Part shown: positions 2,411-41,696 of the stretch, one piece after another
Numbering within the stretch: position 1 is the stretch's first letter
Layout: every line of letters starts with the position of its first letter
NCBI GenBank assembly: GCA_900320565.1
Contig: ONSR01000028.1
Location: 1 to 42,651, forward strand
DNA length: 42,651 bases
Direction of reading: 5' to 3'
DNA from: an uncultured Prevotellaceae bacterium
Lineage (GTDB): Bacteria; Bacteroidota; Bacteroidia; Bacteroidales; Bacteroidaceae
Notes under the pieces: generated by a model
Told to the model about the DNA's origin: nothing
Databases searched by the model: none
The model's input: only the letters and a program-made list of their open reading frames with translations
Made by a program: the position numbers and the translations under genes

Positions 2411-2486
2411 GTCCCTATGAGGGGAAGGACGCGTCCCTATGAGGAGAGGGACACGTCCCTAAGGCGAGAGGGACGCGTCCCTAAAA
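2411..2486. repeat. 22-bp tandem array, GTCCCT/AGGGAC dyad units
   Basis: GTCCCT recurs at 2411, 2433, 2455 and 2477, exactly 22 bp apart. Each unit also carries the inverse AGGGAC (AAGGAC in the first), so units can fold as hairpins. The unit junctions form palindromes such as AGGGACGCGTCCCT. The 22-bp period is not a multiple of three and no frame is coding. Confidence 0.9.
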
Positions 2487-2602
2487 TCGACGTGATCCTC
2501 TGCAGGATTTTCCGAGTTTCGCAAGTGATTAGAAAACAAGGCTATAGAAAAACGTAAAAACTTGACTTGCGTCGACCTGTCGGTCGACTGGTGTTGAGCT
2601 AA

Positions 2603-2673
2603 AACTTCTGCAGTGAAGTTTACGAACTTCTGCAGAGAAGTTGGCCAACTTCTGCAGAGAAGTTTGGGAACTT
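2603..2673. repeat. 22-bp tandem array, AACTTCT-GCAG-AGAAGTT units
   Basis: AACTT starts at 2603, 2625, 2647 and 2669, exactly 22 bp apart. Units 2 and 3 carry the perfect arms AACTTCT and AGAAGTT around GCAG, and unit 1 has one arm mismatch. The 4-bp spacers differ (TACG, GGCC, TGGG). A further 22-nt hairpin follows directly at 2679-2700 (GCGT..AGCT..AGCT..ACGC). Confidence 0.9.
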
Positions 2674-2842
2674 GACTGGCGTCGAGCTAAAGCTTAACGC
2701 TAGTCATGGAGACCGTGGTCAGTTAGACTTCAGTATGACTTCGGTATGAGTTCAATATGAATTTAATATGACTTCAATAGGGACACGGATTTGTCTTTAA
2801 CCGTAAATTTTTATCTCGAACACGGATGATACAGATGACACT

Positions 2843-2906
2843 CTAAGGAGTCAAGGAGTTGAGGAGTTTTTTTCAGGAGAGACTCCTTTACTCCTAAACT
2901 CCTTAG
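2843..2906. repeat. Long imperfect inverted repeat built of AGGAGT words
   Basis: The left arm 2843-2867 and right arm 2882-2906 can pair at 21 of 25 positions around a 14-nt loop. Each arm is itself an 8-bp repeat of the AAGGAGTC type. It could act as a terminator or attenuator for the upstream minus-strand DUF4421 gene. The T-run lies in the loop, so a simple intrinsic terminator is not clear. Confidence 0.6.
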
Positions 2907-3071
2907 ACATGAAAATCCCAGTCGCGAGAAACTATCGCTAAAGCGTGTAAAATCCTTAATTTAGAACAACGGATTGAACTGATTAAACGGATTTGTCTTT
3001 AACCGTTAAACTTTAACTTTTAACCGTTAACCTTTAATCTTTAACCTTTAACCTTTACCTGCGAAGCCCTC

Positions 3072-4103
3072 TTACTTCCACAGCCTCATCCCGACAAAGG
3101 CGTGGGCGACCCATTTGTTCTGATGGACAGTTACGGCATCGTCAACAAAGAGTGAGTTGTTGGCCACCCCAGAAAGTCCCAAGAAATAGCGCTGAGAGAA
3201 GTTATAGACGATGGCGGCCCGTTCGTTGAAGAGCATGTTGAACTTCATCCGCCCTGCATGGCGGCTCTCGTCGTTGATGGTCAGTTTGTTGCGGTTATAG
3301 ACGACAAACGTAGGAAGCAAGGTTAGGTTGAAGAGCCATTTCTTGCCGAGAACGAGGTTGTAGCCATAGCCGCCGCCGATGCCCAGATGGCCCACGCTGA
3401 TGCGAACGTCGGGGTCGTCGGGTTTCAGCTCTTTCCGCTTGTCGCTCGTCTTGATGTTTCCGCCCTGATAGCTCAATCCCACCAGCCACGAGCCCGCCGA
3501 GCGGCGCTGGATGTAGCTCTGGTTGTAGGCTGCAGAAACGCAGTAGCGACGATGGTTGAAGACATAGTAACCGGTGATGTTGAAGACCTTCATGTCTGCT
3601 TCGCCCTCCGCCATCCCAAGGTTCTTGTCGCCAATCGTCATATCGCCCGACAGTGAGGAAGAGCGCTGATAGCTGGCATCGATGCAGAAACGACTGGCAT
3701 AGTAATTGATGTTCAGTTCGTAGTCGTCGTAGAAGCCTTTCAGCTTGGCCGGATTGATGGAATAGGCAGCAGAGATGCCCCGATAGGCAGCTCCGATGGA
3801 AATGGTTGCTTTGTGCTTGGTGCTCAGATGGGACTTGAAGTATTTGTCGCGAACAGTACCTTTTGCCCGGATGCCGTTGCCCGTCAAGTTTGCTCGGAGC
3901 TTCAGCGTCAGCCGTCCCTCAGGACGGACCACATAGTTCGTGTCGTAAGGTGTGCGGTAATAGCGAGACGTGAGGATGCTGTCGGCTTTCGTCCACAACC
4001 TCTTCAGACGAGTCTCGGCATGAATCTCGGAAAGACAACAGACAAGGGACAACAGACAACAGACAGCCCGAAAACTAACATTATGTATTACCCTCACGAC
4101 CAT
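3072..4103 (-). CDS. DUF4421 family secreted/outer-membrane protein
   Basis: The product has 343 aa with an N-terminal hydrophobic signal segment (AVCCLLSLVCCLSEIHA). Alternating beta-strand-like segments run to the C-terminal aromatic and basic ending MRLWK. The opening TKADSILTSRYYRTPYDTNYV and the later GYGYNLV segment match my memory of Bacteroidetes DUF4421 proteins, which are thought to form outer-membrane barrels of unknown function. It follows the patatin gene on the same strand with 38 bp between them, filled by a 7-bp repeat, so co-transcription is likely. The ATG at 4103 is used; no clear ribosome site is seen. Confidence 0.75.
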   Translation of the reverse strand: MVVRVIHNVSFRAVCCLLSLVCCLSEIHAETRLKRLWTKADSILTSRYYRTPYDTNYVVRPEGRLTLKLRANLTGNGIRAKGTVRDKYFKSHLSTKHKATISIGAAYRGISAAYSINPAKLKGFYDDYELNINYYASRFCIDASYQRSSSLSGDMTIGDKNLGMAEGEADMKVFNITGYYVFNHRRYCVSAAYNQSYIQRRSAGSWLVGLSYQGGNIKTSDKRKELKPDDPDVRISVGHLGIGGGYGYNLVLGKKWLFNLTLLPTFVVYNRNKLTINDESRHAGRMKFNMLFNERAAIVYNFSQRYFLGLSGVANNSLFVDDAVTVHQNKWVAHAFVGMRLWK

Positions 4104-4140
4104 TTAACTATGAACTATGAATTATGAACTATGAACTATC
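4104..4140. repeat. 7-bp tandem repeat (CTATGAA/TTATGAA)
   Basis: About five copies of CTATGAA or TTATGAA in tandem fill the short space between the patatin gene and the DUF4421 gene. The same word fills the next two junctions upstream in this gene run. Confidence 0.85.
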
Positions 4141-4141
4141 C

Positions 4142-6364
4142 TCAAAACTCATACCCGAGGTCGAGGAAGAAGTATGGTTTCTTTGTGCGGTTACTGTATC
4201 CGAAGGTGGCTCCAAGGGGACCGAACATCGTCTTGTAGTAGTAAGCGCCCTGAATGCCGTAGAGCGTCTTGTGGTCGAAGAGTTCCTTCAGCTTCTCTGC
4301 CTGCTGGGCCACAGCCACACGAAGCAACACATAGTTGTTGGTTGCTATGCGAAGCTGTCCCTGAAGCTGTGCGGCGACGAACTGATTGGCAACATACTCG
4401 ATGTTTCCTATGCCGGCGAAAGGCATCTGCTGCTCCAAGTAATGACCAAACCAGTTGCCTCCTACATTGTTGGCAAAAATCATAGGAACAACGTCGCCAA
4501 GAAGCAGACGTCCGTAAACCATCGGCTGAAGCGTGAATCGCCTGCCAAAGGTAAACGACTTTCGCCAACTGGCACTAATGTCACTCATGCCAGCCATACC
4601 ATCAAGTTTGACGAAATTGTCCGTAATATAAGCATAGCCAGCCTTGAAGCGAGCACCACGAGTCGGGAAGTACCAATCATCCTCGCTATTGTAATTGAGG
4701 CGGGCACGATAGCTGACGTAATGTTCATTATTGAGGGTAACATCTGTTGACTGCTCCGACTCGAGCTTGTCGCTAAAGTGCATGTAGTCCCAACGCAAAC
4801 CCACTTGGATATTCAGGTTGCGGAAGTCGTGGTTGATGGGCACTGCCTCTGCCTGGAACTGATTGTAGAGGACGCTGTAGTCGCGACTGCCACGAACATA
4901 ACAATCAATATCGTTGCGGCGATAAGTAAAGCTCAGGCTGGGACGTATAAAGTTGCGAGGATGGATGGTGAGCTCGCCACGAGCCATAATGCGCTTGCCC
5001 AGACGAACCGTCAGCTCTGTGTTGGTGGGCACAGCAGCCTTCAGAGGTATCTCAAGTCCCAACAGAAGGGCTGCGTACTCTTCTGTGTCGAAACGCAAAC
5101 CGACATGAGCTTGTGCCACCTTGCGGTTGCCTGCAGTCAGAGCAACATGCACGCCATCTGCGTCGGGCAACAACCGACACTCGGCCGTCTTGAAGAAGAG
5201 GTCCACTCGCATCGATGTAGTGAGCTGTTGCTGCAGGTTGGCATCGATGCTGTCCGTTCTGTTCAAATGGAACTTCTGCCTGAGGAAACGCTCGTCCTGC
5301 GGCGTCATGTTCTCGAAGATAAAGCTCTTCACATATTGCCGCTCGGTCATCACCTTCGGACGAAGCGGATGATGTATGGTGGGGCGGAAGTCGTCGCCGA
5401 TGCCTATCTTCTGCTTCAAGGCCATCAGCTCGTCCCAATGCTGCATGGCTTCCTCCTCGCCTCGACGAACAAGGGTGTCGATGGCAGTGGATGAGAAGCT
5501 TGCAGTATTATAGCCAGAGGTGTTGACCTGCAGATGCAAGTCCGTAATGGCAAGGTTCTCTTCGACCTTGTTCTTACAGTTCACATCGACAATCTGGCTG
5601 AGGATGCCAAGCGTGCCTTTGATATCATCTGCCGTCTTTGCCTCGCCCTGCACGGTGACGCCAATGATGATGTCGGCTCCCATCTCGCGGGCAATGTCGG
5701 CAGGATAGTTGTTCTTCAAGCCACCATCAACCAGCACCTTGTCGCCCAGCCTGACGGGAGCAAAGGCAGCAGGAATGGCCATCGAAGCACGCATGGCTTG
5801 CGGCAACCTGCCGCTGTGGAAGTCAACCTCGCTGTTGTCGATGATGTTCGTCGCCACACAAGCAAAAGGAATCTTCAAGTCCTTCGAGAAGTCGAGCGAG
5901 TCGGTATAGCCCGTACAGAGCTGACCAAAAAGCTCAGCAAGGTTCTTGCCCTTGATAATGCCACCTTCGCTGGACTTGTTCTTCTTGCTGAAAGAAAGTC
6001 CTGTGGAGAAGACATAAGTGTATTGCTTGTTGCGGTCGCTAAGGCTCTGGTTGCGAAGGTCCTCCTTATCAGTTATAACGTAGCTCCAGTCCTGCTTGCG
6101 CACCACAGAGTCGAGCGAGTTGGCATTGTAACCGATGGCATACAAGCCGCCTATGATGCTGCCCATTGATGTGCCGGTAATGACATCGACAGGAATGCCA
6201 GCCCGCTCCAGGACCTTCAGCACACCAATATGTGCCATTCCCTTCGCTCCGCCACCACTCAAGACAACGCCGACCTTCTTCCTGCTTGGAATGCTGTCCT
6301 GTTGTGCACTCAGATTGCAACACAACAGAACCGCTATGACAAGCAACCAAAACTTCCTCTTCAT
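4142..6364 (-). CDS. Patatin-like phospholipase fused to an outer-membrane barrel
   Basis: This 740 aa protein has a signal peptide (about residues 1-20) and an N-terminal patatin domain. The oxyanion-hole motif SGGGAKGMAH lies at 36-45, the nucleophile serine is S66 in GTSMG, and the catalytic aspartate is D213 in DGGLKNN. A POTRA-like part and then a C-terminal BamA/Omp85-type beta-barrel follow, ending LDLGYEF with a terminal phenylalanine. The layout resembles the type Vd PlpD-like secreted lipases, although in many Bacteroidetes the two parts probably stay joined. The expected role is lipid hydrolysis at the outer membrane. It lies between folD and the DUF4421 gene in one minus-strand run. 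Confidence 0.9.
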   Translation of the reverse strand: MKRKFWLLVIAVLLCCNLSAQQDSIPSRKKVGVVLSGGGAKGMAHIGVLKVLERAGIPVDVITGTSMGSIIGGLYAIGYNANSLDSVVRKQDWSYVITDKEDLRNQSLSDRNKQYTYVFSTGLSFSKKNKSSEGGIIKGKNLAELFGQLCTGYTDSLDFSKDLKIPFACVATNIIDNSEVDFHSGRLPQAMRASMAIPAAFAPVRLGDKVLVDGGLKNNYPADIAREMGADIIIGVTVQGEAKTADDIKGTLGILSQIVDVNCKNKVEENLAITDLHLQVNTSGYNTASFSSTAIDTLVRRGEEEAMQHWDELMALKQKIGIGDDFRPTIHHPLRPKVMTERQYVKSFIFENMTPQDERFLRQKFHLNRTDSIDANLQQQLTTSMRVDLFFKTAECRLLPDADGVHVALTAGNRKVAQAHVGLRFDTEEYAALLLGLEIPLKAAVPTNTELTVRLGKRIMARGELTIHPRNFIRPSLSFTYRRNDIDCYVRGSRDYSVLYNQFQAEAVPINHDFRNLNIQVGLRWDYMHFSDKLESEQSTDVTLNNEHYVSYRARLNYNSEDDWYFPTRGARFKAGYAYITDNFVKLDGMAGMSDISASWRKSFTFGRRFTLQPMVYGRLLLGDVVPMIFANNVGGNWFGHYLEQQMPFAGIGNIEYVANQFVAAQLQGQLRIATNNYVLLRVAVAQQAEKLKELFDHKTLYGIQGAYYYKTMFGPLGATFGYSNRTKKPYFFLDLGYEF

Positions 6365-6474
6365 AACTATGAACTATGGACTATGAAGCTTTAGCTCGAC
6401 GTTAGTCAACTATGAAGCTTTAGCTCGACATTAGTCAACTATGAATTATGAATTATGAATTATGAATTATAATA
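6362..6474. repeat. 29-bp direct repeat followed by 7-bp repeats, between folD and the patatin gene
   Basis: A 29-bp unit starts at 6381 and 6410 and contains AGCTTTAGCTCGAC(G/A)TTAGTC. It is flanked by CTATGAA and TTATGAA heptads on both sides. The inner 23-bp phrase is nearly the reverse complement of 2671-2694, so one repeat family is present at two sites in opposite orientation. Confidence 0.8.
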
Positions 6475-7341
6475 AAGATGTTTGCCTGCAGCAAGGGTGT
6501 TGAGCATGAGCATGCAAATCGTCATTGGCCCTACTCCACCTGGAACAGGCGTTATGTAGGAACAAAGAGGAGCCACATTCTCGAAATCGACATCACCTTG
6601 CAGACGGAAGCCGCTCTTCTTCGTGGCATCAGGAACACGCGTGGTGCCCACATCAATAACGACTGCTCCCTTCTTCACCATGTCGGCCTTAAGGAAAGCG
6701 GGCTGTCCGATGGCTGCGATAATGATGTCGGCTTGCAAGCATTCCTCTTTGAGGGTCTTGCTGCGGCTGTGGCAAACGGTTACGGTGGCGTCGCCATACT
6801 GCTTCTGCATCATGAGCTGAGCCATCGGTTTGCCCACGATGTTGCTGCGACCAAGGATGACGCACTTCTTGCCGCTCGTCGGTATCTCGTAGCGACGAAG
6901 CAACTCGAGTATGCCTTTTGGCGTGGCACTGATGTAGCAAGGCAGACCGATTGCCATGCGGCCGACGTTGATGGGATGGAAACCATCCACATCTTTCCTA
7001 TAGTCGATGGCTTCGATGACTTTCTGTTCGCTGATGTGCTTGGGTAAAGGAAGCTGCACGATGAAGCCATCGACGGAGGCATCCTTGTTGAGTTTATCCA
7101 CTTCCGCAAGCAGTTGCTCCTCGGTGATGTCGTCCTCGAAACGAAGCAAAGTGCTTTGGAAGCCGCAAGCCTCGCAAGCAAGCACCTTGTTGCGCACGTA
7201 CGTCTCGCTGCCCCCGTCGTGTCCTACAAGGATAGCTGCAAGGTGCGGACGCTTGCCACCTCGTGCAACGATGTCTTCCACCTCTTTCTTAATCTCTGCC
7301 TTAATCGTGGCAGCAGTCTGTTTTCCGTCAATCAATTGCAT
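6460..7341 (-). CDS. folD: Methylenetetrahydrofolate dehydrogenase / methenyltetrahydrofolate cyclohydrolase
   Basis: The 293 aa length is normal for FolD, the cytosolic bifunctional enzyme that interconverts 5,10-methylene-THF and 10-formyl-THF using NADP. Visible motifs are the substrate region YVRNK around residue 50, VQLPLPKH, the GRSNIVGKP cofactor motif near 165, and the C-terminal signature [13 protein letters not shown]. It lies downstream of ffh on the same strand with a 41-bp gap filled by heptad repeats. The ATG at 7341 gives the family N-terminus [10 protein letters not shown]. Confidence 0.96.
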
Positions 7342-7346
7342 ATCCG

Positions 7347-7382
7347 ACTATGAACTATGAATTATGAACTATGAACTATAAA
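7347..7382. repeat. 7-bp tandem repeat (CTATGAA/TTATGAA) between ffh and folD
   Basis: Five heptads in tandem fill almost the whole gap between the ffh stop and the folD start, the third such junction in this run. Confidence 0.8.
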
Positions 7383-8723
7383 CTACATTCCCGGCATTCT
7401 GCCTTTCATCATGGCCGCCATTTGTTGCATCTTGCTCTTGTCCGTGACAAGCTTCATCATCTTGCGCGTCTGGTCGAACTGCTTGATGAGTTTGTTCACC
7501 TCTTGTATGTTGGTGCCAGAGCCCTTTGCCAATCGCATTCTGCGACTCGTGTTGAGGCATTCGGGATGGGTTCGCTCGCTGGGAGTCATGCTGAGGATAA
7601 TGGCTTCGATGTTCTTGAAGGCATTATCGTCGATGTCCATATCCTTGATGGCTTTGCCCACACCAGGAATCATGCCTGCCAAGTCCTTGAGGTTGCCCAT
7701 CTTCTTGATTTGCTGAATCTGCTTGTAGAAGTCGTTGAAGTCAAATTGGTTCTTCTTGATCTTCCTTTCCAGGCGGCGAGCCTCTTCCTCGTCGTATTGC
7801 TCCTGAGCTCTCTCGACAAGCGAAACGATGTCGCCCATGCCAAGGATTCTGTCGGCCATTCGGCTTGGATGGAATGGGTCGAGCGCTTCCATCTTCTCGC
7901 CTGTGCCGACGAACTTGATGGGCTTGTTGACGACACTTCTGATGCTAAGCGCAGCACCGCCTCGTGTATCGCCATCGAGTTTGGTGAGAATGACGCCCGT
8001 GTAGTCCAACCTGTCATTAAACTCTTTTGCCGTATTCACAGCATCCTGACCTGTCATGGCGTCCACGACGAACAGTATCTCGTCGGGCTGGACGGCATCA
8101 CGAATGTCTTGTATCTGCTGCATCAGTTCCTCATCGACAGCCTGACGACCTGCCGTATCGATAATGAGCACGTCGAATCCCTGAGCCTTGGCATGCTGGA
8201 TGGCATTCTTGGCAACAAGCACGGGGTCGGTTGCGCCTTCTTCTATGTGAACGGGAACGCCCACCTGTTCGCCAAGGACACGAAGCTGTTCCATAGCTGC
8301 AGGGCGGAACGTGTCGCATGCAGCAAGCAAAGGATTCTTTCCTCGCTTTTCCTTGAGCAACTTTGCCAGCTTGCCACTCATCGTGGTTTTACCTGCACCA
8401 TTCAGACCAGCCATAAGGATGATAGCAGGATGGCCTTTAAGGTTCATGTCGGTGGTCTCTCCACCCATCAACTCGGCCAGTTCATCGTGCACAATCTTGA
8501 CCATCAATTGCTGTGGCTTGATGGCCGTCAGAACGTTCTGACCAAGTGCTTTCTGCTTAACAGTATCAGTGAAGGACTTTGCTACCTTGTAGTTGACGTC
8601 TGCATCAAGCAGAGCCCTACGCACATCTTTCAGCGTCTCGGCAACATTTATCTCGGTTATCTTGCCTTCGCCTTTCAGTATCTTGAACGACCGCTCGAGC
8701 CGTTCGCTTAAGTTTTCAAACAT
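7383..8723 (-). CDS. ffh: Signal recognition particle protein Ffh
   Basis: This 446 aa protein has the usual NG plus M layout: an N-terminal helical domain, then a GTPase with the P-loop GLNGAGKTT near residue 107, DTFRPAA, DTAGRQ and TKLDGDTRGG. A methionine-rich M domain comes at the C-terminus (KMMKLVTDKSKMQQMAAMMKGRMPGM). It binds the signal sequence of nascent membrane proteins together with SRP RNA and docks on FtsY. No SRP RNA gene was recognised nearby. It follows the small hydrolase gene by 16 bp on the same strand. Confidence 0.97.
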   Translation of the reverse strand: MFENLSERLERSFKILKGEGKITEINVAETLKDVRRALLDADVNYKVAKSFTDTVKQKALGQNVLTAIKPQQLMVKIVHDELAELMGGETTDMNLKGHPAIILMAGLNGAGKTTMSGKLAKLLKEKRGKNPLLAACDTFRPAAMEQLRVLGEQVGVPVHIEEGATDPVLVAKNAIQHAKAQGFDVLIIDTAGRQAVDEELMQQIQDIRDAVQPDEILFVVDAMTGQDAVNTAKEFNDRLDYTGVILTKLDGDTRGGAALSIRSVVNKPIKFVGTGEKMEALDPFHPSRMADRILGMGDIVSLVERAQEQYDEEEARRLERKIKKNQFDFNDFYKQIQQIKKMGNLKDLAGMIPGVGKAIKDMDIDDNAFKNIEAIILSMTPSERTHPECLNTSRRMRLAKGSGTNIQEVNKLIKQFDQTRKMMKLVTDKSKMQQMAAMMKGRMPGM

Positions 8724-8739
8724 ATCTTGAATTTTGAAT

Positions 8740-9339: not shown

Positions 9340-9344
9340 GGCTG

Positions 9345-9375
9345 CAAATTTACAAAGAAATTTCGAGACCCCAAA
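9345..9375 (-). promoter_or_regulatory. Promoter giving a near-leaderless mRNA for the hydrolase gene
   Basis: Minus strand: TTTG, 19 bp, TAAATTTG, a full match to the Bacteroidetes promoter. Only five bases separate the -7 element from the GTG at 9339, so transcription should start at or very near the start codon. Confidence 0.75.
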
Positions 9376-9450: not shown

Positions 9451-9492
9451 AATTCCGTCGAACACTCCCCCAAAAAGGGAACTGTACGTTTC

Positions 9493-13815: not shown

Positions 13816-13947
13816 AAACTTGACACGGAGGTTTTTCAAAATCGACGTGAGGATTTTATAAAATCGACACGTCGCTTTTGCCAAGGCCTCACGTCGCATC
13901 AGGAAAAAAGCCACGTCGAAGCCCATTTTTCGACGTTTTTAGGAGTG
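13816..13947. repeat. Decayed 22-bp tandem array, CGAC/CACGTCG units
   Basis: Six units start at 13816, 13838, 13860, 13882, 13904 and 13926. AAAATCGAC opens units 2 and 3; CACGTCG is at 13868, 13890 and 13912, exactly 22 bp apart; CGACG in the last unit (13931) has the same phase as in unit 2 (13843). The units have diverged, but the phase holds over 130 bp. Confidence 0.75.
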
Positions 13948-17201: not shown

Positions 17202-17207
17202 GAATTA

Positions 17208-17265
17208 AAAGTTAAAAATTAAAAGTTAAAAGTTAAAAGTTAAAAGTTAAAGATTGAAAATTGAA
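17208..17265. repeat. 7-bp tandem repeat (GTTAAAA)
   Basis: GTTAAAA or close variants repeat about six times between the HAD gene and the next small gene. The tract then drifts into ATTGAAA words. Confidence 0.75.
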
Positions 17266-17381
17266 AATTAAGAGTTGACTTACGGTCGAGAGTACTTTTT
17301 CAATCGGAGCCTTGAGAGGTGAAAATTGCTCGATAAAAGAAAATTCTTTCCGCTTCTGCATTAATTCTTAATTATATTTCT

Positions 17382-22595: not shown

Positions 22596-23504
22596 TTATT
22601 CGCAGATTCCAATTATCTCTTTAACGCTCTTGAAACCATATTTCTCGAGGTATTCATTAATACCCTGAGCAACCTTGGCACTAATGGTCGGATCAAGGAA
22701 ATTGGCTGTTCCAATCTCTATCGCAGAAGCCCCTGCCAGCAGGAACTCTATTGCATCCTTCGCACAGCTAATACCTCCAAGACCAATAACAGGCACTTGA
22801 ACCGCATGAGCCACCTGGTAAACCATTCGCAAAGCAACTGGTTTGATGCATGGGCCGCTGAGTCCTCCCGTTCCGATACTCAAGACGCGTTTACGCTTTT
22901 CTATGTCGATGGCCATTCCCATCAAAGTGTTTATGAGGCTAACTGCATCAGCTCCAGCGTCTTGTACGGCAAGAGCAATGTCCGTAATGCTTGTAACATT
23001 TGGCGAGAGCTTCACGATGAGCGTCTTCTTGTAGGCCTCCCTAACGGCCTTTACAACACTCGACGCTCCTTCGGTCGTTGTACCGAAAGCCATTCCGCCA
23101 TGTTTGACGTTCGGACAGGAGATGTTAAGCTCTATTGCTGGAATGCAATCGAGTTCATTGATACGAGCAGCACATTCGGCATAATCCTCAGGACTGTTAC
23201 CAGACACATTCACAATCATGTTGGTCTTGATGTCCTTTATCTGAGGGTAGATATGCTGGCAGAAATAATCCACTCCCTTATTCTGAAGGCCAACACAATT
23301 TAGCATTCCTTGTGCCGTCTCGGCCATTCTGGGATAAGGATTGCCTTCTCGAGGCTCGAGGGTAGTGCCCTTGACGATGATGCCTCCCAACTGACTCAGG
23401 TCGATAAAGTCTTGATACTCTATGCCATAGCCAAAAGTTCCGCTCGCCGTAAGCACCGGATTCGTCAGCTCCAAGCCAGCTATTTTCACTCGCAAATCTG
23501 CCAT
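22596..23504 (-). CDS. pyrD: Dihydroorotate dehydrogenase B, catalytic subunit
   Basis: The product has 302 aa and is the class 1B form, using FMN, which pairs with PyrK to pass electrons to NAD. Motifs are [54 protein letters not shown] with the catalytic cysteine, and [29 protein letters not shown]. It carries out the fourth step of UMP synthesis. It follows pyrK with an unusually long gap of 143 bp that contains a 22-bp array. Confidence 0.96.
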
Positions 23505-23557
23505 CTTTGTTTTTCCTTTACAGTATCTTAGTCAACCACCCTAGTGTCGTTGCCAAA

Positions 23558-23623
23558 CTTAACACGTTAACTTTATCATTTTAACACGTTAACTTTGCCA
23601 ACTTAACACGTTAACTTTGCAAT
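23558..23623. repeat. 22-bp tandem array, TTAACACGTTAACTTT units, between pyrK and pyrD
   Basis: Three units start at 23558, 23580 and 23602, exactly 22 bp apart, each with TTAACACGTTAACTTT. A broken fourth copy begins at 23624. Each unit holds the near-palindrome TTAAC-AC-GTTAA. The tract sits inside the pyrK-pyrD transcription unit. Confidence 0.9.
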
Positions 23624-23647
23624 TTAACTACGCCACGTTTTGAGGCT

Positions 23648-24421
23648 TCACCAATTCAGTTTCTCGACATCGAACACAGGTCCTTCCTTGCAGACACAAA
23701 CATTTCCGTCTTTCGTGTTTTCGACGCAGCAAAGACAAGCGCCCAAGCCGCAAGCCATCACGTTTTCCAAGCTTACTTCACACGAGATTCCTGTATGTTT
23801 TGCATAGGAAGCCATTGCCAACATCATGGGCTTAGGCCCGCATACAGCAATATTGTCGTACTTTTCTCGCTGCAAAATACTGTGCTGCGTAACGAAGCCT
23901 TTTTCGCCTTCCGAACCGTCTTCCGTGGTCACATAAACAGTCCCCAAAGCACGGTACTTATCGAGCAAAAGCAGGTCAGACTTACTGCGAGCGCCAAGCA
24001 GGAACGTGGGTCGAACGCCCATCCGCAGCATCGCTTCTCCCATGAACAGGAGGGGAGCAACGCCAACACCGCCTCCAACGAGCAAGAACCTCTGTTCTGC
24101 CGATGTGGGCATCGTGAAGCCTTTGCCAAGAGGCAAAATGACGTTCAACGTCGAGCCAGGCTGTTTCAGCCAAAGCGACGCAGTTCCCTTTCCTGCCTTC
24201 TGTATCAGAAAACTGACCTCATTATGCTCATAATCAACATGATGCAAGCTGATTGGACGGCGCAGGAACGTCTCCTTGCTGTCGTCAATACGGAGCTGGG
24301 CAAACTGTCCAGGACTCATTTCCGGAAGAGGACCTGCTGGATTGGTCGCCGAAAGCAGGAGATATCGCTCACTCAGCTGCTCGGCAGAGGTAACTCGAAG
24401 GTCCAAAACGTACTTCCTCAT
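23648..24421 (-). CDS. pyrK: Dihydroorotate dehydrogenase electron transfer subunit
   Basis: From the ATG at 24421 the product has 257 aa (an ATG two codons upstream is possible). It is a ferredoxin-reductase-like protein with an FAD-binding LRRPISLHH segment and the NAD-binding VGGGVGVAPLL motif. A C-terminal [2Fe-2S] cluster site has the cysteines in CGLGACLCC and VCVC. It moves electrons from PyrD to NAD. It is the first gene of the chain and carries a full promoter. Confidence 0.95.
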   Translation of the reverse strand: MRKYVLDLRVTSAEQLSERYLLLSATNPAGPLPEMSPGQFAQLRIDDSKETFLRRPISLHHVDYEHNEVSFLIQKAGKGTASLWLKQPGSTLNVILPLGKGFTMPTSAEQRFLLVGGGVGVAPLLFMGEAMLRMGVRPTFLLGARSKSDLLLLDKYRALGTVYVTTEDGSEGEKGFVTQHSILQREKYDNIAVCGPKPMMLAMASYAKHTGISCEVSLENVMACGLGACLCCVENTKDGNVCVCKEGPVFDVEKLNW

Positions 24422-24446
24422 ATACATTATTATATATAACGCGGTG

Positions 24447-24580: not shown

Positions 24581-25036
24581 TCATTGTTTAGGAGAGAATA
24601 TCTCGTATGTTCCGTCGTCATAAAAGACTCTTATTTCTGCTATTTTACGAGAAGGTTTGTCAAATATTTTTCCTTCTAACGTCAAATTAGAAGTTTGAGG
24701 GGGCATCTGCTGAGAGGTTGCAAGATGATCCATGAACCCAGGTTGAATAGGCAAACCAGAGCCAGATGATGGCGCAATCTGTGATCCTTCATTATTCGAT
24801 TCGAATTGCGGAGAAACAGGAGCTGTAGAACCAAACATCTCGCCTTTTCCGTTCATCAGCCAATCCATATTAACCTCAGGAAAACGTTCATGAATGTTAT
24901 TAAGGGTGTTAAGGGTCGGCTTGTTCCTGCCACTAAAAATACTCGATAGCGTTCCTGGCGAAATACATATCTCGTTAGCAAAATCCTTTTGCGACATTCC
25001 CATGTGTTTCATGAGAGCACTAATCCTGTCCTTCAT
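24581..25036 (-). CDS. XRE-family transcriptional regulator
   Basis: The product has 151 aa. Residues about 1-65 form a helix-turn-helix of the Cro/CI type (RISALMKHMGMSQKDFANEI, ISPGTLSSIFSGRNKP) followed by VNMDWLMNGKGEMF, a pattern common in Bacteroidales. A long Ser/Pro/Gln-rich linker (about 70-115) leads to a short beta tail (IAEIRVFYDDGTYEIFSP). It stands alone with its own promoter and terminator. The target is unknown, but a 21-bp dyad lies upstream of its own promoter, so self-control is possible. Confidence 0.88.
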   Translation of the reverse strand: MKDRISALMKHMGMSQKDFANEICISPGTLSSIFSGRNKPTLNTLNNIHERFPEVNMDWLMNGKGEMFGSTAPVSPQFESNNEGSQIAPSSGSGLPIQPGFMDHLATSQQMPPQTSNLTLEGKIFDKPSRKIAEIRVFYDDGTYEIFSPKQ

Positions 25037-28087: not shown

Positions 28088-28446
28088 TCTCGGATAACAC
28101 AGAGCCTTTCCCAAGGAAACATAAGAGTCCGAAAAACGCCCTATAGAGTAGCGACAAACGCCCTATAGGGGCGACTGGGGTCCGGAGTATGCTCCGGAGA
28201 AGCCACTGAATGTGGCTTCGGCCCCACAAAGGGGAGCGAGTTTCCACTCGCGACGCCCTATAGGGGAGTGAACAACGCCCTATAGGGGAGTGAGCAACGC
28301 CCTATAGGGGAGTGACAGACATCCTATACCTTTTGCGTCAAATAGGTTGTCCTCGTCGGGAAACGCCCCACGGCAGCTTAAAAAAGGAAGGCGTGCCCCT
28401 GTCTTTACAGAAGCACGCCCATATAGTTTCTCAAACGAGATTGGTC
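28088..28446. other. 359-bp gap between convergent genes, mainly a 22-bp array
   Basis: The array takes up 28137-28332. The rest holds AGGAAGGCGTGCCCCTG...CAGAAGCACGCCCATA near 28385-28420, whose GGCGTGC and GCACGCC words could pair as a terminator stem for the zinc-ribbon gene or the orphan nuclease gene. Confidence 0.6.
28137..28332. repeat. 22-bp tandem array with CCCTATAGGG dyads and a mosaic of other hairpins
   Basis: CCCTATAGGG (or CCCTATAGAG) is centred at 28143.5 and 28165.5, then again at 28260.5, 28282.5 and 28304.5, with a degraded copy at 28326.5, all 22 bp apart within each run. Between the runs stand four unrelated hairpins: TCCGGAG/CTCCGGA (28181), AAGCCAC/GTGGCTT (28200), CCCC/GGGG (28222) and CGAGT/ACTCG (28237). 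Confidence 0.9.
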
Positions 28447-34321: not shown

Positions 34322-34409
34322 ATAAGGTCTTGAGGCGAAGTACGCTAATACTTTGGCCAAGGAATACTAGCACCTTGGTTGGAGCATGCTAACACCCCAA
34401 GCGAGGGCT
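34322..34409. repeat. Decayed 22-bp tandem array between convergent genes
   Basis: Four units start at 34322, 34344, 34366 and 34388. The last three share nCTA(A/G)(T/C)AC at the start and a CCAAGG or CTTGG-like middle. The perfect dyad ACCTTATAAGGT (34317-34328) precedes them. The copies are diverged but keep the 22-bp phase. Confidence 0.7.
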
Positions 34410-35223
34410 ATCCCTTTACTCCCTCTGCAACTCCGGCTGTGACAGCGACGAGCATCAGGACAATGAAGAAGATTAGCATGGTCAGAATCATTCCAACGCA
34501 GTTCAGCAGGACGCTCTTCCACCACTGTATGTTGTACAGCTGACGGTAGAGGACGATGATGTAGATTGTGGTGATTATATAATAAACGGTAGTCAGAAAT
34601 CCGTCGAAGCCCTTTATGAGACAGAGGGGGAGCATGACGATGGAAAGGAACATACCAATACAGGAGTGGTACATCTGGGTGTAGAACTGCTCGGTGAGGT
34701 TCAAGGGGAGTTGCTGTCCGTCGGGGCGCGCTATCCTGTACTTGCGAAAAGCCCATTGAAAGGATAACGCTGCAAAAGACGACAGGACAATGTTGCCGTA
34801 GAGTTTGTTAGAGCTTATCTTTGTTATATTCTTCAAAACGAAATCCAAGTATTCGTACTTCGTAGGCTGAGTGTCCGTCTCGAAATTGATGGTTGTCATG
34901 TCGTCGAAGATGGTGTCGCTGACATTCAAGACGTAGGAGAGGATGGCATAAGCCGTCAAAAGGAACACAAACAGTTGCAGGGGGTTGTAGTACCCGATGC
35001 GTTTGCCTTGCATGTACTCACGTATCATGTGGCCCGGACGAATGAAGAGGTCGCGGCAAGTGCACAGGAACTTGTTGTCGCCGCCCACAAATGAGCCGAC
35101 AAAGTTGTTGACGGTTTCAGTCAGTCGCAGCCGTTTGGTATTTGCCTTCTGGCCGCAATGCGGACAATACTCGCCCTCGAAGGCGTTTCCGCAATTCAGG
35201 CAAGTTGTTGTTACTCTATCCAT
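34408..35223 (-). CDS. DUF3667 membrane protein with zinc ribbon
   Basis: The product has 271 aa. It begins with a zinc ribbon (CLNCGNAFEGEYCPHCGQK). The DUF3667 signature follows (FLCTCRDLFIRPGHMIREYMQGKRIGYYNPLQLFVFLLT), then about four hydrophobic helices to the C-terminus. The function is unknown. Its start overlaps the trmO gene by 13 bp, and it is the last gene of the chain that starts with the glycogen synthase. Confidence 0.88.
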   Translation of the reverse strand: MDRVTTTCLNCGNAFEGEYCPHCGQKANTKRLRLTETVNNFVGSFVGGDNKFLCTCRDLFIRPGHMIREYMQGKRIGYYNPLQLFVFLLTAYAILSYVLNVSDTIFDDMTTINFETDTQPTKYEYLDFVLKNITKISSNKLYGNIVLSSFAALSFQWAFRKYRIARPDGQQLPLNLTEQFYTQMYHSCIGMFLSIVMLPLCLIKGFDGFLTTVYYIITTIYIIVLYRQLYNIQWWKSVLLNCVGMILTMLIFFIVLMLVAVTAGVAEGVKG

Positions 35224-35903: not shown

Positions 35904-37216
35904 CTTCTGAATTCCTTATAATATAACAATCCTGCGCTGGTTAGGCCAAATGGAAATGCCATCCATACGCCAACAAGTCCCCAGCCACAAATGAAGCCGA
36001 AGATATAGCCAAGTGGCAACGAGATGACGATATATGCGACGAAGGCTATCCATATCATGGGCTTCACGCGAGCCATGCCTCGGAGGGCATTGGCATAAGT
36101 GCATTGCAGAGCATCGCCCACCTGATAGAGCAGGAAAGGAACCGTCAGCAACGCCACCAGAGAGGCTACGTCCCCGCTCGGCGTAAAGAGCAGCCCTACC
36201 TCGTCCCGCATCAGCATCAACGGCACGGAGAGCACAAAGGCTATCATCCAGCAAAGGTGCAATCCGGCCACAGCCACCTTCTGCATCTGCTCCGGCTCGT
36301 CGGCACCACGGTAATAGCTGACTTGCACGGCCACCGCCGCCGACATTCCATAGTAGAGCATGAAGAAGAGCTGGCCGATGACTATCATCACCTGATGCGC
36401 CGCCAGAGCCGTCGCTCCCAGCCACCCCACATAGATGGCGCTGAAGCTAAACGAGGCTGCCTCCATACCAAGCTGCAACGCCACAGGCCAGCCAAGCCGA
36501 TGCAGCTCCTTCTGGCCTTTCATCGTAACAGAAGCCCTGGGGAAATCTTGTCTGTACGGCTCGTAACGCCTGGTCAGATGGAACACCCCGGCCATCAGCA
36601 CAAGCTGCACCACACGGCTCACAAGCGTAGAGATGCCGGCACCGAACAAACCCATTTCAGGGAAGCCCAAGTGTCCGAAGATGAGCAACCAGTTGCCCAA
36701 GATGTTCAGCACGTTGCTCAGGAGCATAATCCACATCGGCATGGCCGTGTCCTGCACGCCGTCGCTGAACTGTTTGTAGGCGTTGAACACCATCTGCGGC
36801 AGCAAGCTCAGCATCAAGACAAGCAGATAGGGACGCATCAAGGGCAACAGCTCGACGGGTTGCCCCAAGCCTGGCAGGAAGACATAAAGCAAGCCTGCCA
36901 GCAACATCAGCAACAGGCCGACGCCCAGGCAGGCAAAGAGTCCGTTCTTCAGCCCGGCAGCGATGTCGTGCACCCTGCCCTCTCCCAGAAGAGAACCAAC
37001 GACGGGAGTGATGCCGTAGGAGAAGCCCATACCACCTACAATGAGCAGGGCAACGATGTTATTCACGAAACCAGCTGCAGCCAGTTCGTTCGTGCCATAA
37101 TGTCCTACCATAAGCGTATCGGCGAGCCCCATCACGATGGTGCTCAACTGCCCCAACATGATTGGCACGCCGATGCGCAAAAGGTCGGTGTAATAGTATT
37201 TTCTTAGAGGAACCAC
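35900..37216 (-). CDS. MATE-family efflux transporter
   Basis: From a GTG at 37216 the product has 438 aa and about 12 membrane helices in two similar halves ([54 protein letters not shown]). This is typical of multidrug and toxin extrusion pumps driven by Na+ or H+. An ATG at 37279 is also in frame but would overlap the phosphorylase gene by 76 bp and add a proline-rich tail not usual in the family; the GTG gives a 13-bp overlap. The substrate is unknown. Confidence 0.87.
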
Positions 37217-39768
37217 TTCACGTAGCAGAAGTCCTGACGGTGAGGCAGGTTCTTGTTCTTCGGGAACAGACGGTAGCAAACCTTGAAGCTGCCGGCATTG
37301 TCGATGCAGTGGGTGGTGGTGAAGGTGTAGAGGTTGCCTTCGCGCTTCACCATGTCGAAGGAATCAACATGGTAAACATGTTCCTTTCCGTCCTTGTCGG
37401 TGGTGAGCGTCACAAGCTCCAGTCCGATGGCATCGTCCAGCCCGGCCTCGTCAACGACAATCTCGATGTTGTACTTCTTGCCTGCCTCGATGGAGCCATT
37501 GATGAGCTCTTCGCCTTTCTTTGCACTGACCACCTTAACTGCATCCCAACGCTCAGCAACAGTTTCCTTCCAGAGAGCAATCTCCTTGGCAAGCTGATAG
37601 TTGTTCGCCTGCAACTGCTTTGAACGTTCGCTGAGCTTGTTATAGAACTTCTCGTAGTAATCGTCGAGCTGACGCTTCATGGTGTAATGCGGAGCAATCT
37701 GTGCGATGGAGTTCTTGATGACCTTGATCCAGCCAGCAGAGATACCCTTCTTATCCTTCTTATAATATAAGGGAAGAATCTCGTTCTCCAAAAGCGAGTA
37801 GATGGTTGCTGCATCAAGACGGTCCTGATACTCCTGGTTCTGATAGGTGCGCTGCTCGGTAAGAGCCCATCCTGCACCCTCGCGATAACCCTCAAGCCAC
37901 CAGCCGTCTTTCACGCTGAGGTTGACAACACCATTCATCTCGGCCTTCTCGCCAGATGTACCACTTGCCTCCATCGGACGGGTTGGTGTGTTCATCCAGA
38001 TGTCCACACCGCTGACGAGACGGCGAGCCAACAGGAAGTCATAGTCTTCCACAAAGATAATCTTTGCCTGGAACTCAGGGCGCTGACTAATCTCATATAT
38101 CTTCTTGATGAGACCCTGGCCTGCTCCATCGGCGGGGTGAGCCTTGCCGGCAAACAGGAAGATGACAGGGCGTTCGGGATTGTTCACAATCTTGCTGAGG
38201 CGCTCCAAGTCGGTGAAGAGCAGGTGAGCACGCTTGTATGTGGCAAAGCGGCGGCAGAAACCAATGACCAGAGCATTGGGATTGAAACTTTCAATAAGCT
38301 TAACCACGCGCTGCGGGTCGCCTTGATTCTTCAACCAGGTCTCCTTATACTGCTCGGCGACATACTTGAAGAGTTTCTTCTTGAGAGCCTGACGGGTTTC
38401 CCAAATCTCCTCGTCCGGGCAGTTGTAGATGCCGTGCCAAATCTCTTCGTTTGACTGATCGCTAAGATGCTTTGCATCGAAGTACTTGGCATAAACCTGT
38501 CGCCATTCCGTTGCACACCACGTGGGGAAGTGAACACCATTGGTAACATAGCCGACGTGGCTCTCCTCGGGATAATAGCCGTTCCAGATATTGTTGAACA
38601 TCCTCTTGCTGACCTCGCCATGCAACCAGCTTACGCCGTTGACTTCCTGACAAGTGTTGCAAGCGAAGGTGCTCATGCAGAACTTCTCGCTATGGTCGTC
38701 GGGATTCGTGCGACCCATGCCGATGAACTCATCCCAGCTGATGCCAAGCATCTGGGGATAGCCGCTCATGTACTTGCCAAAGAGGTCTTCGGTGAAGTAG
38801 TCGTGGCCGGCTGGCACAGGAGTATGTACGGTATAGAGAGACGATGCACGTACGATTTCGAGTGCTTGGTTGAAGGTGAGACCTTCGTGGATGTAGTCGC
38901 ACAGACGCTGCAGGTTGCAAAGTGCGGCATGGCCCTCGTTGCAGTGATAGACGTCCTTCTTGATGCCAAGCTTCTTGAGCAGCAGCATACCGCCGATGCC
39001 AAGCAGAATCTCCTGCTTCAGACGATTCTCCCAGTCGCCGCCATAGAGGGCATGAGTGATGGGCTTGTCGAACTCGGAGTTCATCTCGTTGTCGGTATCG
39101 AGCAGATAGAGTTTCACGCGACCTACATTGACGCGCCAAACGTATGCATGCACATGATAGTTCATATAAGGAACGTCAACAACCATTGGCGTGCCATCTT
39201 CGTTCATCTGCTGTTCGATGGGCAGTGAGCCGAAGTTCTGTGCCTCGTAGTTGGCAATCTGCTGCCCATCCATTGCGAGGCTCTGTGTGAAGTATCCATA
39301 ACGATAGAGGAAGCCGACAGCGCACAAATCGACGTTGGAGTCGGAAGCCTCCTTCACGTAGTCGCCAGCCAGCATGCCCAGACCGCCACTGTAAATCTTC
39401 AGGGCGGAGTGGATGCCATACTCCATGCAGAAGTATGCTACGGACGGACGCTTGTGGTCTGGCTCTACATCCATATACTTACGGAACAGCGCATAAACAT
39501 CATTGATGCGCTTCATCAGTTTCTTATCCTTTACAATCTCTTCTTTACGGCTAAAGCTCAGGCGCTCCAGGAGTGCCACGGGGTTGTGCTTCACGTCGTG
39601 GTAAACTTCCGGGTCGAGGTCACGGAACAGGTCACGAGCCTCGTAGTTCCATACCCACCACATGTTGTGAGCGAGTTCTTCGAGCTTACTGAGTTCGGCT
39701 GGAACACTGCCTTTAACGATGACTGACTTCCAGCTGGGCTGATTTGCATTACTTGCTTTAATCTTCAT
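37204..39768 (-). CDS. glgP: Alpha-glucan phosphorylase
   Basis: From the ATG at 39768 ([14 protein letters not shown]) the product has 854 aa. The open frame runs 31 codons farther up, but that part lies over the end of the synthase gene. It is a GT35 enzyme of the short bacterial type: [50 protein letters not shown], and the pyridoxal phosphate lysine in [13 protein letters not shown]. It releases glucose 1-phosphate from glycogen. It follows the synthase by 14 bp, so making and breaking of glycogen are encoded together. Confidence 0.94.
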
Positions 39769-39782
39769 ATTCTTTATATAGG

Positions 39783-41450
39783 TTATTTGATTGTTCTTTC
39801 TTTTGCCTTTCGCAGAGCGAAGTCGTAGGCGTCGTAGTAGTATGTGATAAAGTTCTTCCAAAGGGCTTTCTCGGCGAGCTTGGCTGCACTTTGACGCACT
39901 TTGTCGATGGCTTTCTTATCCAAAGCGGAATAGCGGGCAATGGTGGCGCTGACCTTTTCTGCCACTTCCTGGAAGTTATAGTCGTTTCGGGCGATAACTT
40001 CCACGCCGTCCTCCAGCTTGCTGTCGTGTCCGACGCTCGAACTTGCCCAGACACCGAAGCCGCTGAGGGAGGTTGTGATGCAGGGAACATGGAAAGCCAC
40101 TGCCTCGAGCGGTGTATAGCCCCAGGGTTCATAATAAGAGGGATAGGCTGCGAGGTCGTCGCCTATGAGGAGGTCGTAGTAAGGCATTTGGAAGATGCCG
40201 TCGCTTCCGTCGAGATAACAGGGCACGAAGATGACCTTCACACGGCTATGTATATCGTTCTTCATGCCGTGGAAGCGCAGGAAATTGAGCACCGGGTCGT
40301 TCCAAGCTTCATGCAGGTTATGTGTGATGACGGGATCGGGCAACGGCTCGGTATATGTCCAGCCCAGCTTGAGGCGCTCTTGCAGGTCGGTGCGTGGACT
40401 TTCCACCCAAGCCGGAACCTGTATGAGCATCAGGACGGGTCGCTGCAGGTCGCTGTCGTAGAGGCTGCGGTAGGCTGCCTCGAGGAAGACGTCGATGCCT
40501 TTGTTGCGGTACTCATAGCGGCCGCTTGTAGCGACGATGAGCGTGTCGTCGGTAAACTCGGCGCCGGTCAGGGCATTTGCTACCTGCAGAATCTTGGCTC
40601 TTGCCTCCTTGCGACGCTTGGTAAAGGCTGCTCCTGTCGGCACGAAGTCTGCTTCGAAGCCGTTCGGCAGGATGACGTCAGGCTGCTTGTCGAGCAGTTC
40701 TGCACACTCGCGACCTGTGACATCGCTGACGGTCGTAAAGCAATCGACATTATGGGCTGTCTGGCGCTCTATGCTGTGCTTAGCTTCCATGTTGAGCTCG
40801 CCTGCCATTTGCGTGCCGTTGTAAGCCCAAAGGTAGTCATAGAGCGGCTTGTTGTTGCCTGCGATGCTACGGCCGATGCTTGTGGCGTGAGTAGTGAAGA
40901 TGGTGGCAATCTCTGGCACATGCTTCTTGATGTAGAGTACTCCGAGACAAGTCATCCACTCGTGAGCCTGATAGACGACCTGCTTCTTGGCACCGAGATA
41001 ATAGTGGAAAAAGCTTTCCACCACAAGAGCTGCGGCTATGCTGAACATGTTTGCTTCGTCGTAGTCGCCGTAAGCATGGAGGCTGTCCACGCCAAAGTCG
41101 TTCCAGACTGAGCCGTAGATGTCGTTCTTGAACTCGAAGTAGGGCTGAAAGTCAACAAGGACGACGCATGGTTTGCCTGGGATGTTCCAACGACCTGTAC
41201 GGACGTGAAGACCGCTTTCCGCAGCCATCTTCACCCAAGGTTGCCACATCGTCGCATCCTCCAGGAAGAGGGGATTTTTCTTCTCCTGCCAGAGGTCTGG
41301 ACCGATGAAGAGGAGATTGTCGTGATACTGCTCTTGAAGAGTCTTGGCACGCGTCGAGAGCACCGTATAGATGCCACCCATCTTGTTACAAACCTCCCAG
41401 CTACTCTCGAAAATAAAGTCTGGTACCAATCGTTTTTCTCTCATTAACAA
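39783..41450 (-). CDS. Glycogen synthase, GT3 (eukaryote-like) type
   Basis: The product has 555 aa. [20 protein letters not shown] at the N-terminus, [61 protein letters not shown] and [28 protein letters not shown] match the GT3 fold of fungal and animal glycogen synthases, as known in Bacteroidetes. It adds glucose from a nucleotide sugar to glycogen. An ATG two codons in (41444) may be the true start. It heads the chain synthase, phosphorylase, MATE, trmO, DUF3667. Confidence 0.9.
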
Positions 41451-41473
41451 CCTTCGTTTCCTAATTTCGCGCG

Positions 41474-41481
41474 CAAAGGTA
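41474..41481 (-). promoter_or_regulatory. Promoter -7 element of the glycogen synthase gene
   Basis: TACCTTTG on the minus strand, 23 bp before the ATG. The -33 region is AT-rich without a clear TTTG. Confidence 0.65.
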
Positions 41482-41567
41482 CAACAATTTATGTTAAAAA
41501 AGAAACCTTTTCTGCTTTTTATATATAAATGTATAGGGTTTGCGTTACAACATAACTCTTTTTTCGC

Positions 41568-41575
41568 TATCTTTG
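41568..41575 (+). promoter_or_regulatory. Promoter -7 element of the 137-aa protein and cytochrome genes
   Basis: TATCTTTG, with a TTTG at 41539 at a long 25-bp spacing. The predicted start near 41582 puts the whole 22-bp array into the 5' leader. Confidence 0.6.
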
Positions 41576-41586
41576 TAGGAGTTTAC

Positions 41587-41696
41587 AACTCCTTTATAGG
41601 GGAATGCGAACTCCCCTATAGGGGAATGACTAACGCCCTATAGGGGAATGAACAACGCCCTATAGGGGAATGAAGACTCCCCTATAGGGGATAAAT
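41587..41696. repeat. 22-bp tandem array, CCCTATAGGGG units, in a 5' leader
   Basis: The central TATA of each unit is at 41595, 41617, 41639, 41661 and 41683, exactly 22 bp apart. Units 2-5 hold CCCTATAGGGG and differ only in the spacer (for example GACTAACG, GAACAACG, GAAGACTC). The core is the same as in the 28137 array. It ends 10 bp before the ATG at 41706. Confidence 0.92.

Follow-up and report, generated by a model that had tools for sequence, protein, structure and literature searches.

Tandem arrays in the window

The stretch analyzed here, referred to as the window, comprises 42,651 nucleotides (contig ONSR01000028.1, our C72) from the genome of an uncultured Prevotellaceae bacterium (assembly GCA_900320565.1, our G000), a 2.63-Mb assembly in 122 contigs that is about 89% complete. 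Between pyrK and pyrD, and at several other places, the window carries short tandem arrays whose units differ in sequence from array to array and follow one another at 22 bp. We called such arrays with Tandem Repeats Finder (TRF) at scores of at least 30, 40, 50 or 60, depending on the count, and compared the lag-22 identity at each place with the largest value of 2000 shuffles. The features concerned are the following.

2251..2299, no strand: weak 22-bp row, 2.3 copies, no clear dyad (TRF)
2411..2483, no strand: 22-bp array, 3.3 copies, AGGGAC[A/G]CGTCCCT dyads with core CRCG (TRF; lag-22 identity 0.86)
2603..2673, no strand: 22-bp array, 3.2 copies, AACTTC-TGCAGA-GAAGTT dyads (TRF; lag-22 identity 0.86)
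13816..13935, no strand: degenerate 22-bp array with CGTG/CACG cores (lag-22 identity 0.55, shuffle maximum 0.42; TRF 13828-13868)
22596..23504, minus strand: pyrD (dihydroorotate dehydrogenase), flanking the operon gap on its downstream side (Pfam PF01180, E 1.5e-84)
23550..23628, no strand: 22-bp array between pyrK and pyrD, 3.6 copies, TTAA-CACG-TTAA dyads (TRF; lag-22 identity 0.74)
23648..24427, minus strand: pyrK-like electron-transfer subunit of dihydroorotate dehydrogenase, flanking the operon gap on its upstream side (Pfam PF10418, E 1.4e-12)
28124..28168, no strand: 22-bp array, 2.1 copies, CCCTATAG type, first part (TRF; lag-22 identity 0.70)
28171..28252 (approximate ends), no strand: hairpin-rich insert splitting the CCCTATAGGG array, with a 34-bp center repeated in the genome
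28253..28315, no strand: 22-bp array, 2.9 copies, CCCTATAGGG type, second part (TRF; lag-22 identity 0.98)
34322..34410, no strand: degenerate 22-bp row, GCTAATACTTTGGC type, poor fit to the profile described below (lag-22 identity 0.46, shuffle maximum 0.42)
41587..41691, no strand: 22-bp array, 4.7 copies, CCCTATAGGG type, upstream of the plus-strand open reading frame (ORF) at 41706 (TRF; lag-22 identity 0.80, measured over 41587-41696)

A preliminary description of the window had claimed an exact 22-bp period at seven places. The results show that 22 is the best lag at all seven, with an identity above the shuffle maxima (0.40 to 0.61) in every case, if narrowly at 34322. The rows at 13816 and 34322 are the weak ones, and the latter is absent from the TRF period-22 list of the window even at score 30. 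The place near 28 kb proved to be two 22-bp arrays with the hairpin-rich insert in between. The 34-bp center of this insert occurs unchanged nine times in the genome (in the window, twice in C73, and in C29, C33, C35, C94, C116 and C117), it adjoins a CCCTATAGGG array in all five copies that lie inside the genome sample defined below, and it looks recently mobile.

Period 22 across the genome

We analyzed 925 kb of the same genome (35% of its length, hereafter the own sample), most of which was picked because the contigs carried CCCCTATAGGGG, CCCTATAGGG or TACATGTA sites, a selection that bears on the counts. At a TRF score of at least 50, this sample contains 116 arrays at period 22, with 8 at 44, 10 at 21 and a single one at 23, so that the genome-wide peak that the preliminary description called for is strong in the portion covered; the period is not free to vary between loci as in a minisatellite. 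A further 86 arrays have period 7. A 416-kb set drawn from contigs containing CCCCTATAGGGG gave a similar picture at a score of at least 40 (191 non-overlapping arrays, with 59 at 22, 2 at 21, 0 at 23, 6 at 44 and 60 at 7). In 150 kb chosen without regard to any repeat, 11 arrays have period 22, and no other period is represented by more than 2 (score at least 60). Extrapolating from the 35% sampled, the genome probably holds hundreds of such sites. Nearly all arrays of the own sample are short, with 2-5 copies in 122 of 124.

The 22-bp units are dyads, as had been proposed: their best circular self-complementarity is 0.64, against 0.51 when shuffled (n=66), while other unit lengths stay near their shuffles. 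The spacing is equally strict for the frequent CCCTATAGGG pair, present 113 times in the genome and set 22 bp apart in all of the matches listed, although gaps of 2-31 bases were permitted.

By crude gene calls in the own sample, which also define the gaps and gap classes below, 95 of the 124 arrays are intergenic, in line with the location first described, and 29 fall outside called gaps. A tandem array is present in 78 of the 214 gaps of at least 120 bp, and arrays occur in every class of gap (convergent 23/64, tandem 52/224, divergent 11/74).

One unit architecture and a shared register

The preliminary description held that the sequence differs between arrays and that only length and symmetry are kept. 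The first part is supported. The second is not, since a weak consensus runs through the unlike arrays (A3, C9, G12 and T18 of the 22 columns) and a profile built from the units flanking TACATGTA triplets finds further places. The common architecture is a dyad of 22 bp whose outer bases read CA/AA...TT/TG; its core of 4 bp is CRYG or TATA, and its inner arms vary yet remain complementary. In 53 arrays aligned on nothing but a CACG/CGTG core, inner arm positions 1-3 are complementary in 62, 66 and 74% of cases, against 32-35% when shuffled, and position 7 in 89%, against 60%; positions 4-5 lie inside the shuffle range (0.47 vs a mean of 0.44, and 0.42 vs 0.32). The orientation of the core flips from unit to unit inside one array while the arms remain unchanged.

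The register is best seen around the TACATGTA arrays, of which the own sample holds 23 (three units in 20 of them, four in one and two in two), hereafter triplets. The units flanking these triplets are not copies of them, and keep A3 in 93%, C9 in 89%, G12 in 80% and T18 in 89% of cases (n=46), in the same register, which spans about four units and fades by the fifth. In relatives, shift 0 was the best flank shift in 39 of 40 triplets for units 1-2 and in 35 each for units 2-3 and 3-4, with 1.8 expected each time; these loci were not used for the profile but are partly orthologous to profile loci. In the first neighboring unit (n=126), arm complementarity is raised at columns 4, 6 and 8 (0.62, 0.52 and 0.41, against 0.44, 0.39 and 0.28 shuffled), and in units 2-3 (n=252) only at column 6 (0.38 against 0.31).

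Flanks of the 31 CCCTATAGGG arrays of the own sample likewise fit best at shift 0 in 14 (units 1-2) and 18 (units 2-3), where 1.4 are expected. The CCCTATAGGG arrays share the register of the triplets, with TATA replacing the CRYG core, so that the main sequence families represent variants of a single 22-bp architecture. The flank units of the three arrays of the AACTTC-TGCAGA-GAAGTT type also fit best at shift 0. The two GGGACRCGTCCC arrays, one of them at 2411 in the window, have their flank optimum at shift -5, which speaks against a single architecture for every family.

We built the 22-column profile from 138 units (units 1-3 beside TACATGTA triplets, 5.7 bits each) and scanned with scores summed over four units at a threshold of 16 bits, excluding triplets ±300 bp, at periods 14-33. 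The count in the own sample was 74 places for period 22 and 0-14 for each of the 19 others. Period 27 is slightly raised, with 14 places against 0-6 at the remaining periods. A looser profile of outer and core columns only was dropped as noisy, its non-tandem units having nearly no arm complementarity, and the triplet-neighbor units were used instead.

Contact-like arms differ between species

For the arms we used units defined by TACATGTA cores 22 or 44 bp apart and by nothing else. In the own genome (67 units, 134 half-sites), the outer arm is TTGCA in 99%, while the inner NN is mixed (TA 29%, CG 19%, CA 16%, and others). The same arm prevails in the relatives G061 (93% of 21 units) and G063 (100% of 12). 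In G065 the arm is TTATA in 79% and TTAAA in 13% of 54 units, and in G070 it is TTGAA in 65% and TTGCA in 35% of 27; the last two counts come from parts of genomes that hold 117 and 203 units by pattern. A constrained TTGCA beside a mixed NN reads as contact and spacer in a predicted protein site.

Triplets tend to keep their place. Both flanking genes of 14 of the 40 relative triplets are present in the own sample, and by script the gap between them contains an own triplet in 10 cases and lacks one in 4. The shared gaps comprise three of G065, with other arms, and six of G061 and one of G063, with like arms; for G061, six of seven triplets have orthologues of both flanks in the own sample and all six have an own triplet there. 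A G070 locus missed by the script (L165) is, by alignment of its rows, the same site with TTGAA arms. At two G065 loci the orthologous own gap has another array, of CACG type at L147 and of CCCTATAGGG type in a 957-bp gap at L155; for a third, L154, the orthologue match is uncertain (67 and 53% identity).

Orthologous gaps keep the position and change the units

The pyrK-pyrD gap was compared in 19 relatives, 13 of which have 22-bp units like those of the own genome; in L089 the gap measures 15 bp, and five have no gap by script. The 14 array-bearing gaps, own genome included, range from 124 to 191 bp counting the stop codon, and all are 13-15 modulo 22. Lag 22 is the best lag in 14/14 (identity over 44 bases 0.68-0.95, shuffle maxima 0.50-0.59), L091 and L092 being near duplicates. 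The units themselves differ by species, being TTAACGTGTTAA, TAGGCGTGCCTA, GGGACGCGTCCC, AAGGCGTGCCTC or GTCACGTTTGAC.

A convergent gap (28.1-28.4 kb in the window) was compared in eight species, namely our own and seven relatives. It has a terminator-like hairpin in seven of the eight and, after this, GGCGTGCC units in L081, GTGTGACGTT-type units in L084, L086 and L097, TTAACGTGTTAA in L088, a single CCCTTATAGGG in L090, another sequence in L091, and CCCTATAGGG rows with the insert in the own genome. Among L081, L084, L086, L088 and L097, whose units are unlike, all 10 length differences equal 0, 22, 44 or 66 bp.

Length differences of at least 8 bp were also counted over all orthologous gaps. 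Where a gap contains a lag-22 array, 63 of 100 are multiples of 22 to within 1 bp, against an expectation of 13.6, as for a minisatellite that changes copy number between relatives; where it contains none, 53 of 189 are (25.8 expected). Since the pairs of species are non-independent, we attach no probability to these counts. Units are gained or lost in exact 22-bp steps between L141 on the one hand and L176 and L183 on the other, and the row of degenerate units that follows the triplet at the L076 site is longer or shorter by whole 22-bp steps according to species, the DNA beyond being conserved.

Spread among relatives

The named relatives are uncultured metagenome-assembled genomes, mostly ruminant-derived. 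In 20 of the 36 same-genus genomes, sampled with one stretch each (370 kb), there are 19 arrays at 22, in 11 of the 20 stretches, and the profile scan gives 9 matches at period 22 against 0-2 elsewhere. The 15 pyrK loci of near relatives (267 kb) hold 30 arrays at 22, at least one per locus, and 33 profile matches at this period against 0-4 at others. Beyond the genus the signal fades: four more distant pyrK loci (79 kb) have a single weak array (L099, score 56), and 140 kb from other genera of the same family (G113, G312 and G381) show no peak, with one array at 22 and one at 44. The profile scan of other genera gave 1 match at period 22 against 0-6 at other periods. No 22-bp array was found in 262 kb from 20 genomes of other families of the order.

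The individual sequences are restricted as well. With gaps of 2-30 bases, TACATGTA pairs occur 44 times in the own genome, 22 bp apart among the five matches listed. No pair at 22 bp was found in 392 other Bacteroidales genomes, 10 of which have one or two pairs at another spacing; the five that belong to other genera of the same family have no match to the pair. The CCCTATAGGG pair is nearly private to the species, with 3 in G034 and 0 in the other 35 same-genus genomes.

In a genome of another family (G054), a 20-kb stretch has two 23-bp arrays around an ACAAGYTTGT-like palindrome (L055, 8231-8298 and 9647-9736); no further array was found in 200 kb more of the same contig (220 kb overall).

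Arrays as proposed rows of protein-binding sites

Because the register runs through unlike units, the outer arms are constrained while the inner bases are mixed, the arrays are restricted to the genus and their positions are retained at orthologous loci, we favor recognition of the DNA by a protein. With moderate confidence, we interpret the arrays as series of binding sites, all in phase, for a sequence-specific protein or small protein family that would bind DNA as a dimer and pack cooperatively, and whose specificity would drift between lineages. A protein array that reads spacing and symmetry was one of two processes suggested in the preliminary description, and it is the best explanation that we found; the dyads stand at a fixed helical pitch with constrained contact bases, as cooperative arrays would. 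One dimer would occupy each 22-bp dyad, and neighbors, bound to one face at intervals of about two helical turns, would pack side by side. Each half-site, of about one turn, would offer an outer contact (CA/AA, or TTGCA in triplets) and an inner one next to the bendable core (4 bp, CRYG or TATA). The strong sites, namely TACATGTA triplets and CCCTATAGGG rows, are embedded in weaker in-phase units and may serve for nucleation followed by spreading. Units would be gained, lost and replaced in whole 22-bp steps, such that the register persists while the sequence drifts with the specificity of the protein. The putative protein may act in chromosome organization or in insulating neighboring genes rather than in the regulation of single promoters. 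Since G-T and A-C mismatches are about equally frequent on the transcribed strand (94 and 85) and arrays occupy all gap classes, the units are unlikely to act as RNA or as promoter operators. More tentatively, with confidence just short of even, we propose a genus-wide chromosomal lattice, in which a putative family of cooperatively packing proteins reads the 22-bp dyad register in many intergenic gaps, and in which orthologous sites inherit the register although protein specificity and site sequence both turn over.

Several results weigh against the binding-site interpretation. Inner arms that are free yet complementary are not predicted by one fixed protein specificity, and in G065 the inner bases of the triplets are uniform as well, which points to recent copying in that genome. 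Columns conserved in the profile do not evolve significantly more slowly between species (0.111 vs 0.133 per site, p=0.25, 75 flank units). Units 7-8 beside the 40 relative triplets, meant as a control, still fit best at shift 0 in 11, with 1.8 expected, so that either the register extends that far or the test is unclean. A first search for dissimilar dyads in register yielded 12 pairs from the own genome, and not one of these lay at 0 modulo 22; of the four pairs in relatives, three did, all at one locus. In the convergent gap, the 18 pairs involving the own genome, L090 or L091 are 2 to 10 bp off multiples of 22, the own genome carrying the insert and L090 having no clear lag 22. The arrays are commoner in convergent than in divergent gaps, which fits tolerated junk too. 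Finally, the 755 predicted proteins of the own sample form clusters of at most five members, and these revealed no binding-protein candidate and no evident expansion of DNA-binding proteins except one sigma-factor-like cluster noted by eye.

Alternative explanations

The alternative that survives best is that homologous conversion or some transposase copies short cassettes, such as 66-bp triplets and CCCTATAGGG rows, from one intergenic site to another, the register arising from recombination with resident units. Near-identical units recur at the 19 G065 triplets read. At one locus, a G061 triplet and two neighboring units differ from their own-genome counterparts, with nearly identical sequence downstream from the next unit (L177, L133) and a drop in similarity upstream. 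Given the uniformity in G065, the nearly private CCCTATAGGG family and the nine-copy insert, cassette copying also occurs and contributes as well. As the explanation of the arrays themselves we consider it unlikely: it leaves the degenerate in-register units unexplained and sits poorly with the retention of triplet sites at orthologous places, as in G061. No terminal inverted repeats or target duplications were seen by eye at the ends of the 31 CCCTATAGGG arrays and 23 triplets, for which no automated search was made, and two unit patterns of the own genome had no match among viral contigs.

The other process in the preliminary description was template slippage of fixed length. As a minisatellite, a chance 22-bp duplication would grow and shrink in replication, helped by its palindromes and free of function. 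The low copy numbers and the exact unit steps between relatives agree with it, but slippage gives no reason for one genus, as opposed to the others sampled, to have the same period at more than 100 unlike places, nor for constrained outer arms beside variable inner bases. A register that crosses mutually dissimilar units already counts against it as a sole cause, and we regard it as improbable.

A still smaller probability attaches to symmetry kept by mutation. Quasi-palindrome mutagenesis is template switching that makes the left and right arms alike; if it equalized the arms here, a protein would read the outer and core bases only. This would account for the free complementary arms and for mixed half-sites within arrays, and it is compatible with the binding-site interpretation. 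Alone, it yields neither the 22-bp register nor the genus restriction nor the constrained outer arms.

That the units function as RNA hairpins, for instance in mRNA decay or termination, is very improbable despite the arrays in operon gaps and 3′ regions and the complementary inner arms around a 4-base core, as arm positions 4-5 at shuffle level leave no continuous stem, the near-equal mismatches argue for DNA rather than for a pairing stem that tolerates G-U, every gap class is occupied and Rfam gave no match in the window. Like simple slippage, RNA hairpins fit worse than arrays of protein sites, as do repetitive extragenic palindromic (REP) elements with their associated tyrosine transposase (RAYT).

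Comparison with known systems

REP elements and bacterial interspersed mosaic elements (BIME) resemble the present arrays as short dispersed intergenic palindromes that are sometimes arrayed. A REP/RAYT system fits poorly: a Y1 transposase (PF01797) had no match in the own genome, at its completeness, nor in 12 of 18 other genomes (it is present in 6 of the 19 tested), the units have many sequences instead of one conserved palindrome family, and their 22-bp pitch is fixed. A CRISPR array likewise fits poorly: the 12 bases that separate the listed CCCTATAGGG copies mostly follow a handful of patterns in variant form, unlike the unrelated constant-length spacers between the identical repeats of such an array.

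At MetJ met boxes and ArgR ARG boxes, palindromes lie next to each other at a fixed pitch and are bound side by side; they occupy few regulated promoters and have one conserved sequence. The arrays described here differ in their many sequences and in their presence in over a third of the longer gaps, of all classes. ParB-parS, SlmA and MatP use dispersed palindromic sites with nucleation and spreading, each with a single conserved sequence. The present sites are similarly dispersed and palindromic, and nucleation with spreading is what we propose for them; we know of no 22-bp lattice, and of no site drift between species of one genus, in those systems.

Two repeats of Bacteroidales were also compared. 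BrickBuilt, a minisatellite miniature inverted-repeat transposable element of Porphyromonas gingivalis, is described as having an intergenic 23-nt tandem unit, with 19 copies in one strain, and as forming a single sequence family that has a leader, a tail and terminal inverted repeats like those of IS5 (PMC4596501). The arrays share with it the order, the intergenic location and the short tandem unit; they differ from that description in their many unit sequences at period 22, in having no such ends by eye and in a register that extends beyond the repeats. The same account mentions tandem direct repeats of 22, 23 and 41 nucleotides in P. gingivalis W83, which had been described without exact locations (PMC4596501). 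PINSR, of the Prevotella intermedia group, is a 188-bp intergenic repeat present in 177 and 184 copies and without terminal inverted repeats, according to the description (PMC4755523). It too is an intergenic repeat, amplified in a Prevotella lineage, and as described it is set apart by being one 188-bp sequence and not a 22-bp array. Among open-licence full texts, judged by title and the start of the abstract, we found no work on 22-bp palindrome arrays in this group.

Repeats are usually recognized by their sequence. Here, phase, symmetry and position outlast it, and because they persist while the sequence turns over, most of these arrays would escape ordinary repeat masking and searches for motifs. 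If it exists, the lattice would represent a new class of bacterial chromosome-organizing element, defined by phase and symmetry instead of sequence. A protein reading it would count as a nucleoid, boundary or partition-like factor in a gut lineage that has been little studied, and the species-specific arms would provide a ready series for following the joint change of a DNA-binding specificity and its many sites. If a copying process is responsible instead, its steps are exactly two turns long, and this too would be new to our knowledge.

Other features of the window

The region 2380-2800, a block of several 22-bp array types, has 67-83% identity to the extreme starts of contigs C35, C56 and C40 (matches at L001 75-253, L008 1-308 and L017 75-277). 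As the block resembles the very starts of three contigs, blocks of mixed 22-bp arrays may break the assembly. On the minus strand, an ORF at 24581-25036 is weakly similar to RstR-family phage repressors (NF041951, E 8.3e-6, under the curated cut-off). The second strong tandem-period peak is formed by heptamer arrays (CTTTAAC, AACTATG, TTAAAAG and others), which in the window lie at 2997-3057, 4106-4139, 6440-6470, 7347-7385, 17205-17276 and elsewhere.

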